Part shown: in pieces, positions 21,437 through 54,060 of the stretch
Numbering within the stretch: the stretch's first letter is position 1
Layout: each line of letters opens with the position of its first letter
Assembly (NCBI GenBank): GCA_030060845.1
Contig: CP094379.1
Location: forward strand, 317,737 to 381,736
Direction: 5' to 3'
DNA from: Candidatus Midichloria sp.
Lineage (GTDB): Bacteria; Pseudomonadota; Alphaproteobacteria; Rickettsiales; Midichloriaceae
DNA: 64,000 nucleotides
Notes under the pieces: generated by a model
Told to the model about the DNA's origin: nothing
Seen by the model: the letters and a program-made list of their open reading frames with translations, nothing else
The model's database searches: none
Made by a program: the position numbers and the translations under genes

Positions 21437-21930
21437 TAATCCATATTTTTGCCGTAAACTTTTATGGCTCTTAAAATAGCATTTTTTTTAGTATTTTCTA
21501 GTGTTTCTATTTTTTCTGCTGCTTCTTTTTTTATTATTACCAGGCCACTCGTACTCTTTTATTCTATTTAATGGCATTTGTACTAATATTTTTAAGACTC
21601 ATGTCATTAATTTTGGCAATATTTCCTTACAAAATAATTGGCAAGCAATTCTATATCCCATACTCTTTCCTTAAGGCTTGGTGGATTAATATTTATCACG
21701 TTTAATCTGTGAAATAAATCTTCTCTAAAATTGCCCTTTTTTATCTCATACTCTAAATCTCTATTTGAGGTGGAGATAATTCTTATGTCCAGTTTATCGA
21801 CATATTTGAGCCCACCCTCATTACTTCTTTTTCTTGTAAAACTCTCAAAGTTTTGCCTGTAGTTTTAAATCCATTTCGCTAATTTTGTCTAACAAAATAG
21901 TAGAGTGATTTGCTGATTCCATGCTCAGAG
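21437..21930 (-). pseudogene. Sigma-54-type activator (NtrC/FlbD-like) remnant
   Basis: The minus strand gives STILLDKISEMDLKLQAKLL and RVLQEKEVMRVGS, the Walker B region of NtrC-family AAA+ activators (usual form LLLDEISEMD...). Across frameshifts it continues with DIRIISTSNRDLEYEIKKGN, FREDLFHRLNVINI and WDIELLANYF, then the EWPGN block, and a tail NAILRAIKVYGKN. The REC domain, Walker A and GAFTGA loop are missing. The match to FlbD-type flagellar activators is suggestive only. It lies directly upstream of ftsK on the same strand. Confidence 0.7.
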
Positions 21931-39865: not shown

Positions 39866-40510
39866 ACTAAATGCCTTAAGAGCTTTTATATTCTCCTTAT
39901 ATTTAAGGTTGTTAAATATAAATCTAGTAGCAACTAAGATATCAGCACCAGCATTGACACATTTTAGCAGTTGCTTCGTTGATGCAGCCATCTATAGCAA
40001 GTAATATTTTGCAGTTTGTTGCCTTGATTTTACTGTGAATATTAGTAATTTTTTTAGCTGCGAGGATAAAAGATTCTGACTAGCAAGTCCAGAGTATACC
40101 GTCATAACTAATATTAAATCCACGCAGTTATATAAATCATTCAAAACACCCTCATCAGTATCAGGTGATATAGAAATACCAACTACTACTCCATATTTTT
40201 TAATTTCTTTAACGACTACTTCAAAGTTTTGAGTAACCTCTAAGTAAATAGTTAAATCGAACTGCCAGCTGTTATAAACTCTTTTATATAGTGTTCTGGC
40301 TTTTCTATCATAAGATGAACATCTAATGGAACTTTAGAGTGCTTGGGCGATATCTGCAATGACCTTAAGGTCTTAGACGATATTGGGTACAACAATACCA
40401 TCTATAACGTCAACATGTATACAATCAGTGCCAGCCTCCTCAAGCTTAGTTATTTCTTCTTTTAAGATAGAGAAGTCAGCTGATAACATTGATGCAGAAA
40501 CTTTTGGCAT
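39866..40510 (-). pseudogene. rpe: Ribulose-phosphate 3-epimerase pseudogene
   Basis: The 5' end is well kept: MPKVSASMLSADFSILKEEI, then TKLEEAGTDCIHVDVIDGIV. Later segments appear in other frames: VVVGISISPDTDEGVLNDLY, VDLILVMTVYSGLASQ (normally MTVNPGFGGQ) and CVNAGADILVATRFIF. Several stops and frameshifts intervene, and the catalytic DGG segment is broken by a stop. Rpe interconverts ribulose- and xylulose-5-phosphate. With rpiB intact, the non-oxidative pentose route is left incomplete unless another copy exists. Confidence 0.85.
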
Positions 40511-40551
40511 GAGTATTTGTTGTTAATTAATTAGAATATTAAAAAATTTAC

Positions 40552-41110
40552 TATGACACAAAACATTCCAAAAATTTTGCTGCCTGTTAACAATATAAAT
40601 AGATAGTGCCCAGATTCAAAGCTTTGTACTAACTACTTAATCCGATTTTTGTAGGAGCTGATCTAAGTTTTTTGATTTGTTGCCAAATTTGGGAGGTAAA
40701 AGTTTAGCTATCTGGAGCTTGGAAGACCATATACTAACAGGAACTAATAATGAATTCACTGCCAAAGTTTTGCAGCCTGATAATGAAAAGAGATTTTAGC
40801 ACAATTAATGCTGAGAGAGAATTTACTTATTTTATGTTAAAGCAAAATAGTGAGAAACTCATTTCAATGCTTTCGGGTATTGGGGTAAACCAACCTAATA
40901 TTAACTTAAATTTCGCTATGCATAATAGAGCATTTGGAAAAAAACGAGAGCTATTAAAAATAGCACTAATAAGGAGTTTGCAGAGTTGCAAATCGCAATG
41001 AATGAATCCTTAGGAAATGGGTCTTGATAAAAAAATAAAAACTGCTAGCATTTTGGTTAATGGTATAGTTAGTGGTGTGAATTTGTTAATTTAAATAAAA
41101 TCACTTTTGA
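40552..41110 (+). pseudogene. fliK: Possible flagellar hook-length protein FliK remnant
   Basis: The first segment is MTQNIPKILLPVNNIN at 40552. After frameshifts, the stretch LTGTNNEFTAKVLQPDNEKR reads into STINAEREFTYFMLKQNSEK and LISMLSGIGVNQPNINLNFA. The pattern T-x-x-ML-x-x-NSE-x-L-x-x-ML-x-x-GI-x-x-x-x-INLNF resembles the FliK C-terminal (Flg_hook) domain. The main support is position: it sits directly before an flgD remnant, and fliK-flgD is a common gene order. The family call remains tentative. Confidence 0.4.
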
Positions 41111-41121
41111 GGTATTGTTTT

Positions 41122-41690
41122 GTGGAAACTGATATAAAACCTAAGATTCGGAACGAGAAACCTAAAATAGCCCCAGCATCATCTAAGATACGTTCTATAA
41201 AGGAACTAAAAATAATATGACGAAGTTACTTATAGCTTCAGTTAGAAATGCCAACCACCTGCAACAGACAGATCCAACAGCTTCAATGAATATGGTGAGT
41301 ACGATTATTGCGCTTGAACAAGGAGACGCTTAAAATCAAAGAAGAAGCTAAGAACCCTATACCAGAAATAATTGATTTAACAGGAGAAATAGTGTTTACA
41401 GAATCAATTCAAATTTTGGATACAAAATTTACTTGGAATGGGATACCAGGTAAAGCTGAAGATTTCTACAAAGAATTAAAATTTAGAATCATAGATGAGC
41501 TTGACGTAGAAAAAAAGATATGGCAAAATATGAAAGCCTACTATACGTTATGTTGATGAGATTATCCAAGAAGGTGAAGATTCAAAGAGAAAAAGGTATT
41601 TGCTAACTAAGTGCGGAAATAAAATTGAAATAGAGCAAGCTGTTGATATGTCACTACTGTTGCCCTTATTATTAATTGCAATACCATCCA
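41122..41690 (+). pseudogene. flgD: Flagellar hook-capping protein FlgD pseudogene
   Basis: The segment TKLLIASVRNANHLQQTDPT with SMNMVSTIIALEQ corresponds to the FlgD N-terminal signature (FLKLLxxQxxxQDPLxPxDxxxFxxQxxxxxxxEQ). After another frameshift come PEIIDLTGEIVFTESIQI and KFTWNGIPGK, the FlgD Ig-like part with its W-D/N-G turn. The tail VDEIIQEGEDSKRKRYLLTK then CGNKIEIEQAV matches the FlgD C-terminal GRV-E-x-GG-x-LL pattern. At least three frameshifts break it. FlgD caps the growing flagellar hook. Confidence 0.6.
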
Positions 41691-42060
41691 TAACTACTCA
41701 TACCTAATTTAGTTATATTGCCAAATACTCAGTTGTTGTTTGTATGGTTTCCATGGCATATTGCGGATGTAGTAAAATCAATGATACCTGTATAATCTCC
41801 CTTAAATTAACTGTAACATTATGGTTAGCGGTAATATTAATCTTGACCATAATTGTATTGTTCTGTTGTAGCTTGGTAATTTGAAATATCCTCTATATCT
41901 ACATGATAAATGACATACGTATAGCAAGCGAGTGCTACTTTTAATCACAACAAATCATACTGCTATCAGTCTTTTGCACCTTACAAGAGAAGACAACTAA
42001 TAATTAGGCTCATCTTTATAATTTAATTATGGGCATCACACTCAGTAGCTCATCGGTAGC
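41691..42060. other. Degraded stretch without assignable gene
   Basis: No open frame over 50 codons. The minus strand has a short NITANHNVTVNL stretch followed by GDYTGIIDFTTSA, which recalls autotransporter passenger repeats of rickettsial surface antigens, but the match is too short to call. Confidence 0.25.
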
Positions 42061-49640: not shown

Positions 49641-50358
49641 ATGGGATTAAAGGATTTTTTTGCAAAACTAAAGAATGAACAAGAGGTTGCTGCTCCTTCC
49701 AACGTAGCAATATTACGCAATTGGTATAAAGAAAGGTATGAAACCGCTATTATACAACGTAATCTTCTATTTATTAGTATTAGTTGCATTATTAGCAATA
49801 GTTTCTTTTTTCTTTTTCGTTATAAGATATGTAAGAAGCACTAGATCCATAGAACCCTTCATCATTGAAATAGAAAGAAAAACTGTGGTTCCAACTGTAG
49901 TTGATCTAGTAACAATTGAGGCCTACTCTGCTAATACTTCCATAAAACGTTATTTTGTTTGGAGATAGATACATAACAACAAGAGAAGAATATTTTCCTT
50001 CAACATATACATACAATTATACAACCACTGTATGGGGGTATTATCTACACCTGAAGTCTACTTTTTGGGGGACTATAGGCCAAAGTATGGCGTGGCTAAC
50101 TCAAAAAGCCCATATAATTTGTATTTCCAAGGAAGTAGTAGAACAGTTAAATTAAAATCTATGATATTTACTAATAATTCATCTACTCAAGTTAGGATTT
50201 TAATTGAGGTTACTGATTTAATGAATATGAAGATGGATAAAATAGTTTCCATTGAATTTGATTTTCAAAATATTGAAATGAATGATGAGGAAAGATTAAT
50301 AAATCCTTTGGGTTTTAGAGTTAAGTTATATAGGATAGAAGATGAAAGAATTCAGTAA
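49641..50358 (+). pseudogene. virB8: VirB8 (type IV secretion) pseudogene
   Basis: VirB8 is the bitopic inner-membrane core protein of type IV secretion. The start MGLKDFFAKLKNEQEVAAPS with NWYKERYETAIIQRNLLF is sound. Frameshifts near 49770, 49965 and 50030 then move the reading into LVLVALLAIVSFFFFVIRYV (membrane helix), RSIEPFIIEIERKTVVPTVV, YITTREEYFPSTYTYNYTTT, and MNMKMDKIVSIEFDFQNIEM in the last frame. Together the pieces cover the whole protein in order. The stop overlaps the virB9 start as in an intact operon, so decay is recent. Confidence 0.85.
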
Positions 50359-51075
50359 CTTATTCATGCGATACATTGCATCAATCGTCTGTATCTTTTT
50401 TATTCTTAAAAGCGCTAATGCCCTATTGGACAAGCCTATAGCCACGGATAGCAGAATTAGAACATTCATTTATAGTAAGAATGAAGTATTTAGAGTAGTG
50501 GTGCATTATGGATATCAAACCAATATAATAATTTGCTGATGGATAAGAAATACAAACCATCTAGGTAGGTAATAACTACGCATGGCAACTATCACCACTT
50601 GGATACCAATTATTCATAAAGCCGTTGGAAGAAAATATTCTAACTAATATGACTTTAATAACTAACAAGCGCACCTACCAATTTGAATTACAATCCAAAG
50701 ACTTAGCAGGATTGATAGGTGATGAGCTGGTTTACGTAGTAAGATTCTTTTACTCTGATGAAAATCAAAACATAATATCTCCAGAAACATCCAGCGTAGT
50801 TGCTGAAAATGATACGATACCAGCAGTACAACCTTATAATTTCAATTTTCAATAATGGGATCAATACTTATTTCAGATTTCCCAAAAATTTAGATAAGAT
50901 TCCGGTAATTGAAAATAAAATAGGTAGCAACCTAATCAAAACTACCTCTAAAAAGCTAAAGGGTTATATTTTAGTAAATACCACCAGTACCTCTTTTCTT
51001 ATTTCATTAAATAATCAAAAAGTAGAAATAATTAATAACAAATTGGTTGGACAGAACAATGGAAAAAGTAAATGA
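50342..51075 (+). pseudogene. virB9: VirB9 (type IV secretion) pseudogene
   Basis: Outer-membrane-complex component of type IV secretion. It begins MKEFSNLFMRYIASIVCIFF, a signal peptide, then ANALLDKPIATDSRIRTFIY and SKNEVFRVVVHYGYQT before a break near 50520. A second frame carries WQLSPLGYQLFIKPLEENIL and TNKRTYQFELQSKDLAGLIG to 50855. A third has INTYFRFPKNLDKIPVIENK and TSTSFLISLNNQKVEIINNK. Two frameshifts disrupt an otherwise full-length gene, whose end overlaps virB10. Confidence 0.8.
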
Positions 51076-52015
51076 TCAGAATTCTTTTAATCCAGTAGTT
51101 GAAACAAAAGTTCAGCCTAAAGCTTCAGCAACCTCTAATCCAAGTACTACAAGCCCCCAACAGGCACAGCCTAACGGGAGTAATAAAATTGATGGTATAA
51201 AAAGCTGCTAAAACAACATACAGGAGCAATTTTCTTCAGTTGCAATTAACTCTGACCATAAAAAGCTAATAGGCGTACTATCATTAATCGCAATTGGAGC
51301 ATTAGTTTATTTCTTTTTTTCAGCGGCACTCCAACTCCTGATAAACAAAAAGATGATTATAATAAAAAAATAGAAGCTAGTAAAGAAGAGATAGTAAAAC
51401 AATCCATATTGCTGCCAAAAGTGGTAGTTAATGAAGGTACTACTATAAATACAGATATACCAGGCACTTTAAGAGCAATTGTAACGCATGACGTTTTTCT
51501 GGAATCAGGTAATAATATTTTAGTACCTAAAGGCTCTCGTCTTGTTAGCAGTTATGAGTCAAAGGTTAAGCCTGGACAAACCAAAGTTAGTATAATGTGG
51601 AGCAAGGCTAATTCGGCCTGCTGGTGAGATATAGCTATTGAAAGGTCAACAGGAACCGATGCCCCTGGTAGAGCTGGGTGCATAGGTCAAGTAGATAGTA
51701 AATTTTTATCGCAAGCTTCTAAATGCTTTCTTGGTTTCTTACGTTATCCCACTTGGAGCTCAACAACTTTTTGAATATGGTAAAAACCAGATCTCAACTT
51801 CAACAACCACTGGTGGCACCGGCATAACTACAACCACTATTGGAACAGCTAGAAATTTTACTCTACAACAAGCAGCTCAAGATTTTAGTAAATTAGTCTC
51901 AGATGCAGTAAAAAATAATTTTTCACCTAAGTCAACTATTAGTATCAATCATGGTACTATAGTTGATATTCTAGTACAAAAAGATTTAATTTTCCCAACA
52001 ATGGTATTACCATAA
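51059..52015 (+). pseudogene. virB10: VirB10 (type IV secretion) pseudogene
   Basis: Energy-sensing scaffold spanning both membranes. MEKVNDQNSFNPVVETKVQP opens a Pro/Gln/Ser-rich cytoplasmic part that stops at 51210. The membrane helix region (LIGVLSLIAIGALVYFFF) follows in another frame. The periplasmic core is seen as ILLPKVVVNEGTTINTDIPG then TLRAIVTHDVFLESGNNILV, PKGSRLVSSYESKVKPGQTK, and, after a stop and shift, LGAQQLFEYGKNQIST and INHGTIVDILVQKDLIFP, the normal C-terminus. At least four lesions are present. Confidence 0.85.
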
Positions 52016-52019
52016 GTTT

Positions 52020-52445
52020 AGCAGCATTAGAAACTTACCTAGAACTCTTAAAAAATCTCTTTGCTTGAAGAAGGAGTAAATGAAATATCTATTAACCGAC
52101 CAGCAGAAGCTTGGGTAGAAAAAAGAGGAAACATTCGAAAAGAAGTTCTTCAACAACTAGATTTTAATCATCTAAGAGAACTTGCACAGCTTGTTGTCCA
52201 GTCAACTGAATAAAGCATTAGTGAAGATACTCCTTTCCTCTCAGCTACATTACCAACTAGCTTTAGGATACAAATTGTAATTCCCCCCAGCTTGTGAGCC
52301 AGGAACTATAGGGATGTCTATAAGAAAGCCTTCTTCGATGAACTTAGATCTTGACAGCTATGAGAAGTGAGGTGCTTTTGACAATACAGCTATTGAAGAG
52401 GAAATTGATAATAATACTCTAATACTTAAAGATTTATTGGTCAAA
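52020..52445 (+). pseudogene. virB11: VirB11 ATPase N-terminal remnant, truncated
   Basis: N-terminal half of the hexameric type IV secretion ATPase. Broken frames give LAALETYLELLKNLFA, EEGVNEISINRPAEAWVEKR with one shift, FNHLRELAQLVVQST, IQIVIPPACEPGTIGMSIRK with one shift, and [19 protein letters not shown] then KDLL. This is the VirB11 N-terminal domain in order. The Walker A and B motor domain is absent. At about 52445 the similarity ends and a fliP fragment begins in the same reading frame. Confidence 0.75.
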
Positions 52446-52655
52446 AATATAATAAAAAATATACCACTCCATGCGTTGATCCCTGCATTTATGATCAGTG
52501 AGCTTAAGGAGGCTTTTGAAATTGGCTTTCTTATATTTTTACCTTTCTTAGTAATTGACATGCTAATATCATTACCATTTAAGATTATCTTTTTCGTACT
52601 TATAGATGGCTGGTATATGCTTTGCAGTAATTTAGTTAAAAGCTATGGCCTTTAA
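52446..52655 (+). pseudogene. fliP: Flagellar export gate FliP C-terminal fragment with internal deletion
   Basis: The frame from 52437 encodes [20 protein letters not shown] then [20 protein letters not shown] and [14 protein letters not shown], a strong match to the end of FliP, a type III flagellar export gate protein. Between VIDM and LISLPFK about 16 residues of the usual family sequence (the ASVLMSMGMMM region) are missing, an in-frame deletion. Everything upstream of PLHALIPAF is gone and is replaced by virB11. No start codon of its own fits. Confidence 0.8.
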
Positions 52656-52664
52656 TAGGGCACT

Positions 52665-52790
52665 ATAATCCCTAAGTACGAAGCTGGTTAAAGATAATGA
52701 CATTGAGCCTGAGATACCTAATAAAAGGAATAGAAGAGCAAATTTTAGATTTGATAAGACAGTTTATAAATGGAGGCATAGAATAGAGTT
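52665..52790 (+). mobile_element. IS5-family transposase fragment (copy 4)
   Basis: The plus strand reads LVKDNDIEPEIPNKRNRRAN then FRFDKTVYKWRHRIE, the C-terminal part of an IS5 transposase up to the last catalytic Glu, where similarity stops abruptly. Positions 52719-52788 are identical to the reverse complement of 53629-53698 in copy 3. Confidence 0.75.
52719..52788 (+). repeat. 70-bp perfect inverted repeat, left arm
   Basis: All 70 bases match the reverse complement of 53629-53698. The arm encodes the NKRNRRANFRFDKT...KWRHRIE part of an IS5 transposase. The two arms flank an IS630 remnant about 840 bp long. Confidence 0.95.
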
Positions 52791-53530
52791 TATAAGAATT
52801 TATACAATTTATTGGAAAGACTCGATGGTTTTTCTTATTTCATTTTTAATTTTAAACCGGTAATACTCTATTGGATTCAAGTCAGGAGAATAAGTTGGTA
52901 GATATGAAACTTTACAACTTACTGATTCTATTAGTAATTTCACTTTAGCAGTTTTGTGAAAATCAATATTATCCAGAACTACTGTTTGCCCAGCTTTTAA
53001 TTCTTTAATTAACATAGTTTCTACGTAAGTCTCAAAAATATCCTTATCACAATTTACCTCAAATAATAATAAGTGCAATAACAGCATTATTACAAATACC
53101 TGCTATCATACCGATTCTAGATTTACGTTTATAAGCCTTTTCACCATAACATCTTTTATCTTTAATGCTCTATCCGTATTCTCTGCAACTACTTATTTTC
53201 TATCAAGATTCATCAAGAAATACCAATTGCTCTTTGGGAACTTGTTGTTTAGTCCTATAAACTCATTTCTTAATCCAGTATCCCTTTTTGGATGATGAAA
53301 AAGTTTTTTATAAGCTCTATAACCAAATTTCCTCAGTAACCTTGCTATAGTACTTGCAGAAACTTTTTAATTCTAGTTGCGAGCTAGTTCTCTAGTAGTC
53401 TTATCGTAATTTGCTTCCACAAATTCCTTAAGCTTTTCTGTATCCTTTATTACCCTACCATGTCCCTTTTGATAACCAGTTCTTGCTTTTACATACTTCT
53501 TGCTGCTTCTTATAATTTTTTCCACTTTTT
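52791..53530 (-). mobile_element. IS630-family transposase remnant with N-terminal HTH
   Basis: The open C-terminal part (52809-53087) has GQTVVLDNIDFHKTAKVKLL with the catalytic Asp in LDN, and KVSYLPTYSPDLNPIEYYRF with the catalytic Glu. Upstream in other frames are the helix-turn-helix region RTGYQKGHGRVIKDTEKLKE, ASTIARLLRKFGYRAYKKLF, HHPKRDTGLRNEF and NWYFLMNLD, where the first catalytic Asp would be expected (normally xxDE). At least three stops or shifts break it. It differs from the IS630 remnant at the left end of the window. Confidence 0.8.
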
Positions 53531-53698
53531 TTTAATAAGAGATGAAGCAATAAATCCAAGAAAGTAGTATCAAGTTTATCAAATCGCATAGCTAATCTAC
53601 AGTTTTCTTTAATCCTACCAAATAAATTCTCTATTCTATGCCTCCATTTATAAACTGTCTTATCAAATCTAAAATTTGCTCTTCTATTCCTTTTATTA
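53531..53698 (-). mobile_element. IS5-family transposase C-terminal fragment (copy 3)
   Basis: The minus strand gives NKRNRRANFRFDKTVYKWRH then RIENLFGRIKENCRLAMRFD and KLDTTFLDLLLHLLLKK with one indel. This is the best preserved IS5 tail in the window. It abuts the AAA-ATPase fragment at its upper end and the IS630 remnant at its lower end. Confidence 0.8.
53629..53698 (-). repeat. 70-bp perfect inverted repeat, right arm
   Basis: Exact reverse complement of 52719-52788. The identity of the arms contrasts with the strong decay of the IS630 remnant between them. Confidence 0.95.
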
Positions 53699-53704
53699 AG
53701 TAAT

Positions 53705-54060
53705 TACGCTCCTGAAAAAGAGATATTATTACTAATTTTAATTGCTCTTCTATTTTTTCTATTGAGCTACCAGTATCCTCACCTGATTCAAGAGTATATT
53801 CCTCAACCTCCAAATAATATTCTATTATGATTCTCATTTAATAAAACACCATGATTATCAATTTTAATTTCTAAAAAAGTTTTTAACATATCCATATTAA
53901 GGGTCTTGCCCCACCTACATGGACGAGTTATAAGAATTGCTTCATTGGCACTACTTAGTATTTCTTCTATAAATAAAGTTTTACCTACAAAAAGTCATAA
54001 GTAGTAACCACCCTCTCAAAATTCTAAGTGCCTGATGGTATTAATGGATGATTATGTGAC
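53705..54060 (-). pseudogene. AAA-ATPase-like (PF09820-type) protein, N-terminal remnant
   Basis: Across frameshifts the minus strand gives NFERVVTTYDFFVGKTLFIE then EILSSANEAILITRPCRWGK, TLNMDMLKTFLEI, and EYTLESGEDTGSSIEKIEEQ near the lower end. The FVDKT...LITRPRRWGKTLNMSML pattern is the start of the AAA-ATPase-like family often paired with a PD-(D/E)XK nuclease domain and widespread in intracellular bacteria. The RWGKT part is its degenerate P-loop region. The rest of the protein is cut off by the IS5 fragment. Function unknown. Confidence 0.65.

Follow-up and report, generated by a model that had tools for sequence, protein, structure and literature searches.

The window analysed here, a stretch of 64,000 nucleotides covering positions 317,737-381,736 of the single 933,600-base contig of a Candidatus Midichloria sp., contains at 40552-41690 a series of short, broken reading frames. 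A preliminary description attributed these to remnants of the flagellar hook genes fliK and flgD, raising the question of whether the locus is indeed a dead fliK-flgD pair, and whether the flagellum it once served was lost before or after two Midichloria lineages split. We hold with very high confidence that the locus is such a dead pair, and that it reflects the loss of an inherited flagellum amid genome-wide decay. The pair, encoding a hook-length control protein (FliK) and a hook-capping scaffold (FlgD), would once have helped to build the flagellar hook, with frame-shifts, stops, internal deletions, and a 3' repeat fragment having destroyed both genes and left them without present function. 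Their decay forms part of the genome-wide decay of an inherited flagellum in a tick endosymbiont.

The window pieces themselves respond weakly to direct profile searches, with no piece at 40.5-41.7 kb exceeding a curated flagellar threshold by itself. Pfam FlgD (PF03963) gives no match in the whole genome at E <= 10, FlgD_ig (PF13860) gives no match to the FlgD middle piece, and the sole Pfam match of that piece is to the unrelated family YqgU (E = 0.028, sub-threshold). The FliK piece matches Pfam Flg_hook (PF02120) over profile positions 41-78 with a sub-threshold E of 0.036-0.039, and the N-terminal block of FlgD matches an NCBIfam FlgD model with E = 0.062. Models of FlgD and FliK, built from 37 and 35 open frames respectively of order and family relatives, yield a FliK match with E = 0.47 in the window pieces and no match to FlgD at E <= 1. 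A profile check of the remnants, as proposed in the preliminary description, therefore fails on the window alone, and identification was shifted to the sister genome Candidatus Midichloria sp. HscuESP (G106), the one other Midichloria returned by searches with glyS and FliP, the fliK-flgD ortholog of which does match FlgD and FliK models.

Comparison with 19 genomes by blastn reveals the locus in HscuESP, with 80% DNA identity over 531 query bases (E = 8.9e-130) and a second block of 82% over 305 query bases (E = 2.7e-78), on a contig of 28,604 bases (G106:C141, represented by L039, with L047 being the same contig). The relatives' FlgD model scores 22.3 bits on the N-terminal block and 16.2 bits on the Ig-like block of HscuESP, and the relatives' FliK model 27.7 bits on the HscuESP FliK fragment, with E values of 1.8e-6, 1.2e-4, and 7.7e-8 for the HscuESP pieces against these models. 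One additional FlgD match in HscuESP from this search is at chance level (E = 0.86), and a reversed-sequence control gave no match at E <= 1. In a search of 319 kb in six-frame translation (11,848 pieces), covering the window, L039, and a further 30 loci, the matches at E <= 5 comprised the HscuESP locus alone (twice, as L039 and L047), plus the window's own FliK piece (7.4 bits, E = 2.3). Curated families respond more faintly: the HscuESP middle piece matches YqgU (E = 0.0017) ahead of a sub-threshold FlgD_ig (E = 0.0077), and NF009453, the flagellar basal body rod modification protein, with E = 0.0075, while the HscuESP FliK piece matches Flg_hook over profile positions 6-36 with E = 0.0034, below the cut-off, and the threshold of PF03963 is reached by FlgD of neither the window nor HscuESP. 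The conserved N-terminal block of FlgD (Q-DPT/S-M...ALEQ type) is nevertheless present, as seen by the model score of the HscuESP ortholog, to which the window block is orthologous at the DNA level. The window locus is thus identified as fliK-flgD on the basis of its DNA orthology with HscuESP and the FlgD and FliK model matches of the latter.

The arrangement of the genes is likewise that of a hook gene pair, with fliK lying directly upstream of flgD, on the same strand, in 35 of the 37 loci containing flgD (a non-random sample of the 30 best FlgD matches and seven loci from the family), and no FliK frame found upstream of flgD in L015 and L040. This agrees with the earlier placement of a FliK-like C-terminus before flgD in the usual order. 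The fliK-flgD pairs of flagellated Rickettsiales, both in the family (G120, G126, G033, G152, G161, and G009) and in genomes of the wider order, share the genes, order, strand, and signature blocks of the window, however these pairs are open frames, whereas the window pair is broken, shortened, and cut by a repeat. The HscuESP locus resembles that of the window in being an orthologous, broken fliK-flgD pair adjoined by a broken rpe, but is less decayed, retaining the middle of fliK and the segment of flgD missing from the window. Its neighbourhood is rearranged, and blast finds no counterpart in it of the repeat that terminates flgD in the window.

Table 1. Features of the fliK-flgD locus, its flanks, and the other flagellar relics of the window (window coordinates)
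Feature	Position	Strand	Evidence or remark
FlbD-like sigma-54 activator relic, part of AAA+ domain	21610..21864	-	PF00158, E 3.4e-10
rpe (ribulose-phosphate 3-epimerase) relic, upstream of fliK	39908..40522	-	PF00834, E 1.6e-10 for piece 39995-40333
fliK relic, 5' part	40553..40716	+	within blast block 39908-40716 to HscuESP, 75% identity
fliK relic, 3' part with Flg_hook-type segment	40803..41094	+	blast block to HscuESP, 80%
flgD relic, N-terminal block with DPT...ALEQ signature	41122..41329	+	HscuESP ortholog matches relatives' FlgD model
flgD relic, Ig-like block with WNG turn, other frame	41335..41553	+	HscuESP ortholog matches FlgD model
flgD relic, C-terminal block, third frame	41534..41640	+	block 41335-41639, 82% to HscuESP
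Multi-copy repeat fragment, 288 bp	41630..41917	+	overlaps flgD relic end by ~11 bp at the junction
fliP relic, C-terminal part	52371..52652	+	PF00813, E 3.5e-21, two stretches

The 5' part of the fliK relic (Table 1) retains a start codon and the first ~54 codons in broken frames, with the gene probably beginning at the ATG common to the window and HscuESP. The relic terminates in VNLLI followed by a stop, comparable to the INILV, INILA, and INLVI ends of FliK in five of the six family relatives compared, L041 being different. The middle of the gene is gone, as window positions 40716 and 40803, less than 90 bp apart, correspond to positions ~650 bp apart in HscuESP. The flgD relic, likely starting at ~41122, is without ~140 bp near 41330 relative to HscuESP, and its FlgD-like blocks occupy three different frames (41187-41330, 41299-41553, and 41534-41704). 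With three frames, the ~140 bp deletion, and an end removed by the repeat, the open frame is not intact, and the flgD relic is a pseudogene encoding no working FlgD. The FlgD signature, the WNG-containing Ig-like block, and the C-terminal block reported initially are all found in these broken frames, and the interval 40552-41690 stands as fliK-flgD as far as ~41640, where FlgD homology stops, its last ~50 bases belonging to the repeat and not to flgD.

The repeat segment at the end of flgD has five further copies in the same genome at ~99% identity, plus several shorter pieces. These five copies run on past both ends of the 288-bp segment, and its interpretation as a complete small element was rejected on this ground. 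A structured RNA was also rejected, with 175 of 200 shuffled sequences folding at least as well, and the only match of an Rfam scan at gathering thresholds is a tRNA at the position of a tRNA-Leu predicted by ARAGORN. Frames which we take to be transposase-like lie near one of the repeat copies (L119). Two matches in a plasmid blastn search, of 39 and 47 query bases (E = 0.09), are regarded as chance. On the other flank, rpe is a pseudogene in both the window genome and HscuESP, as seen from the blast block and the broken frames. Within the locus, window positions 41012-41105, around the fliK stop codon and the gap between the two genes, match HscuESP at up to 78 of 80 aligned bases, compared with a locus mean of 81%, a similarity reached in 3 of 5000 column shuffles.

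Flagellar relics extend well beyond the hook genes. The fliP relic at 52.5 kb in the preliminary description is secure, scoring 76.4 bits against PF00813 (cut-off 26.9), albeit over profile parts 111-153 and 167-191 only, and matching TIGR01103 (E = 1.5e-22) ahead of yscR-type models; a whole-genome search returns the same place (52443-52634) with matches of 55.5 and 25.6 bits. The flbD-like activator at 21.5 kb fares less well, in that FlbD is the best-scoring of the 24 NCBIfam families listed (81.9 bits, followed by 72.0 for the next and 69.5 for NtrX), but the match spans only 68 residues, and its score lies well short of the 750 bits required for a full-length match, such that a FlbD-like relic is suggested. 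Elsewhere in the genome, flhA (508.5-510.4 kb) survives as seven matches interrupted by stops and shifts of frame, fliF and fliG each contain two internal stops, and Flg_bb_rod gives five short matches, three of them above the cut-off, in frames 19-121 aa long. No match to Pfam Flagellin_N or FlgI was found in this genome, leaving part of the flagellar set without a visible trace. In HscuESP, flhA, fliF, fliG, and flgI are all broken and the remaining flagellar genes searched are broken or were not found, with no match to FliP in this assembly of 150 contigs, in which a gap is possible. A flagellin N-terminal match does occur in HscuESP within an open frame of 190 aa (L111, G106:C152:21500-25500).

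FlgD matches occur in 73 of 173 genomes of the order, and FliP exceeds the cut-off in 18 of 23 genomes of the family, the window relic counted. Taken with the flagellar relics, the presence of FlgD and FliP in relatives renders the absence of an ancestral flagellum untenable, and the relics document the loss directly, more strongly than missing genes would. The preliminary claim of at least two relics scattered over 31 kb was therefore correct as to the relics but understated their spread, which is genome-wide, and its preference for loss over primitive absence is upheld by fliP, the FlbD-like piece, flhA, fliF, and fliG. The identity of the locus, its broken state, the same state in the sister genome, and the further flagellar relics are matters of observation, from which the cell would be expected to be non-motile.

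Whether this loss preceded the split of the two Midichloria lineages was addressed with the flhA, fliF, and fliG sequences of the window genome and HscuESP, aligned with frame-shifts allowed to the intact proteins of a third genome (G145). At codon positions one, two, and three, the two genomes differ by 0.142, 0.121, and 0.331 for flhA, 0.173, 0.143, and 0.336 for fliF, and 0.131, 0.109, and 0.345 for fliG. Realignment to another reference under a stricter frame-shift penalty, two settings on which the break counts depend, gives similar values (0.319-0.362 at the third position and 0.094-0.199 at the others). The fliK-flgD blocks together show 0.134, 0.102, and 0.321, with the fliK block alone, comprising only ~30 codons, showing little third-position excess (0.200, 0.097, and 0.226). 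Comparable patterns are observed in the intact control glyS (0.126, 0.081, and 0.291), which is 83.4% identical between the two genomes (253 differences in 1526), and in an open control gene that we take to be lolA-like (0.128, 0.071, and 0.314). Neutral decay of both copies since the split would produce equal differences at all codon positions.

Breaks in these genes are mostly private to one genome. On the first (G145) alignments, with coincidence defined as lying within three codons, the three genes of the window genome contain 28 breaks, of which HscuESP reads through 21 in frame, with three coincident and four unresolved, and those of HscuESP contain 27, of which the window genome reads through 20, again with three coincident and four unresolved. 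One of the three coincident breaks, in flhA, has the same phase change in both genomes, and may be an older, shared break or a hot spot. The third-position excess and the private breaks argue that selection outlasted the split and that decay was mostly separate. At least one lineage, and probably each of them, thus appears to have kept its flagellar genes under selection past the split, and we conclude from these alignments that most of the decay would have occurred separately. That the two sister lineages lost their flagellar genes largely separately, following a period of selection beyond their split, is in our view likely. A more specific history, in which both lineages kept the flagellum under purifying selection long past the split, presumably in ticks, before separate and fairly recent losses, perhaps together with the type IV secretion system (T4SS), we regard as evenly balanced between true and false.

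Of the alternatives, a single inactivation before the split, with both copies decaying since, would account for fliK, flgD, flhA, fliF, and fliG being broken in both genomes and for the one flhA break possibly common in site and phase, but is unlikely given that differences are some two- to threefold more frequent at third than at first and second codon positions, a pattern that neutral decay since the split does not give, that most breaks are private, and that Midichloria mitochondrii is reported to possess flagellar genes (PMC10847448). Sequencing or assembly errors breaking otherwise intact genes might be suspected of a genome in one contig, which may derive from long reads with common indel errors. 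Such errors are a highly improbable explanation, as the same window contains long intact frames (829, 1411, 1371, 1010, and 770 aa), fliK and flgD also bear large deletions and a repeat fragment, and HscuESP, assembled separately, has these genes broken as well. Finally, whilst the window pieces alone give only sub-threshold matches, and one of them matches an unrelated family best, the idea that AT-rich, non-coding DNA resembles these genes by chance is scarcely credible against the DNA orthology, the specific sister-genome model matches, the fliK-flgD order, and the codon-position pattern.

The reading of the locus as a dead hook gene pair, lost with the flagellum, accords with published accounts of the order. 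Flagellar genes differ within the genus Midichloria, and their pattern across the order is attributed to repeated, independent reduction or loss (Castelli et al. 2024, PMC10847448), with Floriano et al. 2023 cited on Midichloria flagellar gene content in both that work and a meeting report (PMC10847448, PMC11044969). In the symbionts of Hyalomma marginatum, pseudogenisation is described in few functional categories, with motility not among the two named in the passages drawn on here (Buysse et al. 2021, PMC8709577), and the stem "flagell" occurs in the main text of that paper once, in a reference title. The Midichloria symbiont of I. frontalis has 84% genome identity to that of I. holocyclus and 91% to those of Hyalomma (PMC12645838). 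Set beside these figures, the 83.4% identity of glyS to HscuESP would allow the guess that the window genome is the third Midichloria species, that of Ixodes holocyclus, although a single gene does not stand for a genome average. As flagellar loss within Midichloria is already reported, the present finding is real but largely expected, and is an ordinary case of endosymbiont genome decay. The parts of Castelli et al. 2024 (PMC10847448) drawn on here contain no description of relic sequences or of a codon-position pattern, and what the present analysis adds is the anatomy of the relics and the test by codon position and private breaks, with late, separate loss being of modest added interest.

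Private breaks combined with the third-position signal offer a way to date the disuse of the flagellum in each lineage and to compare this with the place of the symbiont in the host cell. Comparative genomics is said to tie mitochondrial colonisation to the T4SS and the flagellum (meeting report, PMC11044969). If late, separate loss is true, the flagellum would have served a purpose within ticks up to its abandonment by each lineage, for instance by giving access to mitochondria or by acting as a secretion device.

The T4SS, called almost fully conserved in Rickettsiales in the text of PMC10847448 drawn on here, is itself damaged in the window, with broken virB8, virB9, and virB10 (PF04335, PF03524, and PF03743) at 49708-52012 (+), just upstream of the fliP relic. 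Two of the five virB8/virB9/virB10 pieces fall below the cut-off, no further VirB10 is found in the same genome at E <= 0.1, and the VirB10 match in HscuESP contains two internal stops. On the other side of the fliP relic, a stretch at ~52669-52860 (+) recurs at 53458-53837 (-), and the interval 52669-53703, leading to what we take to be a pheS-like gene, is occupied by short broken frames that presumably represent transposase pieces.
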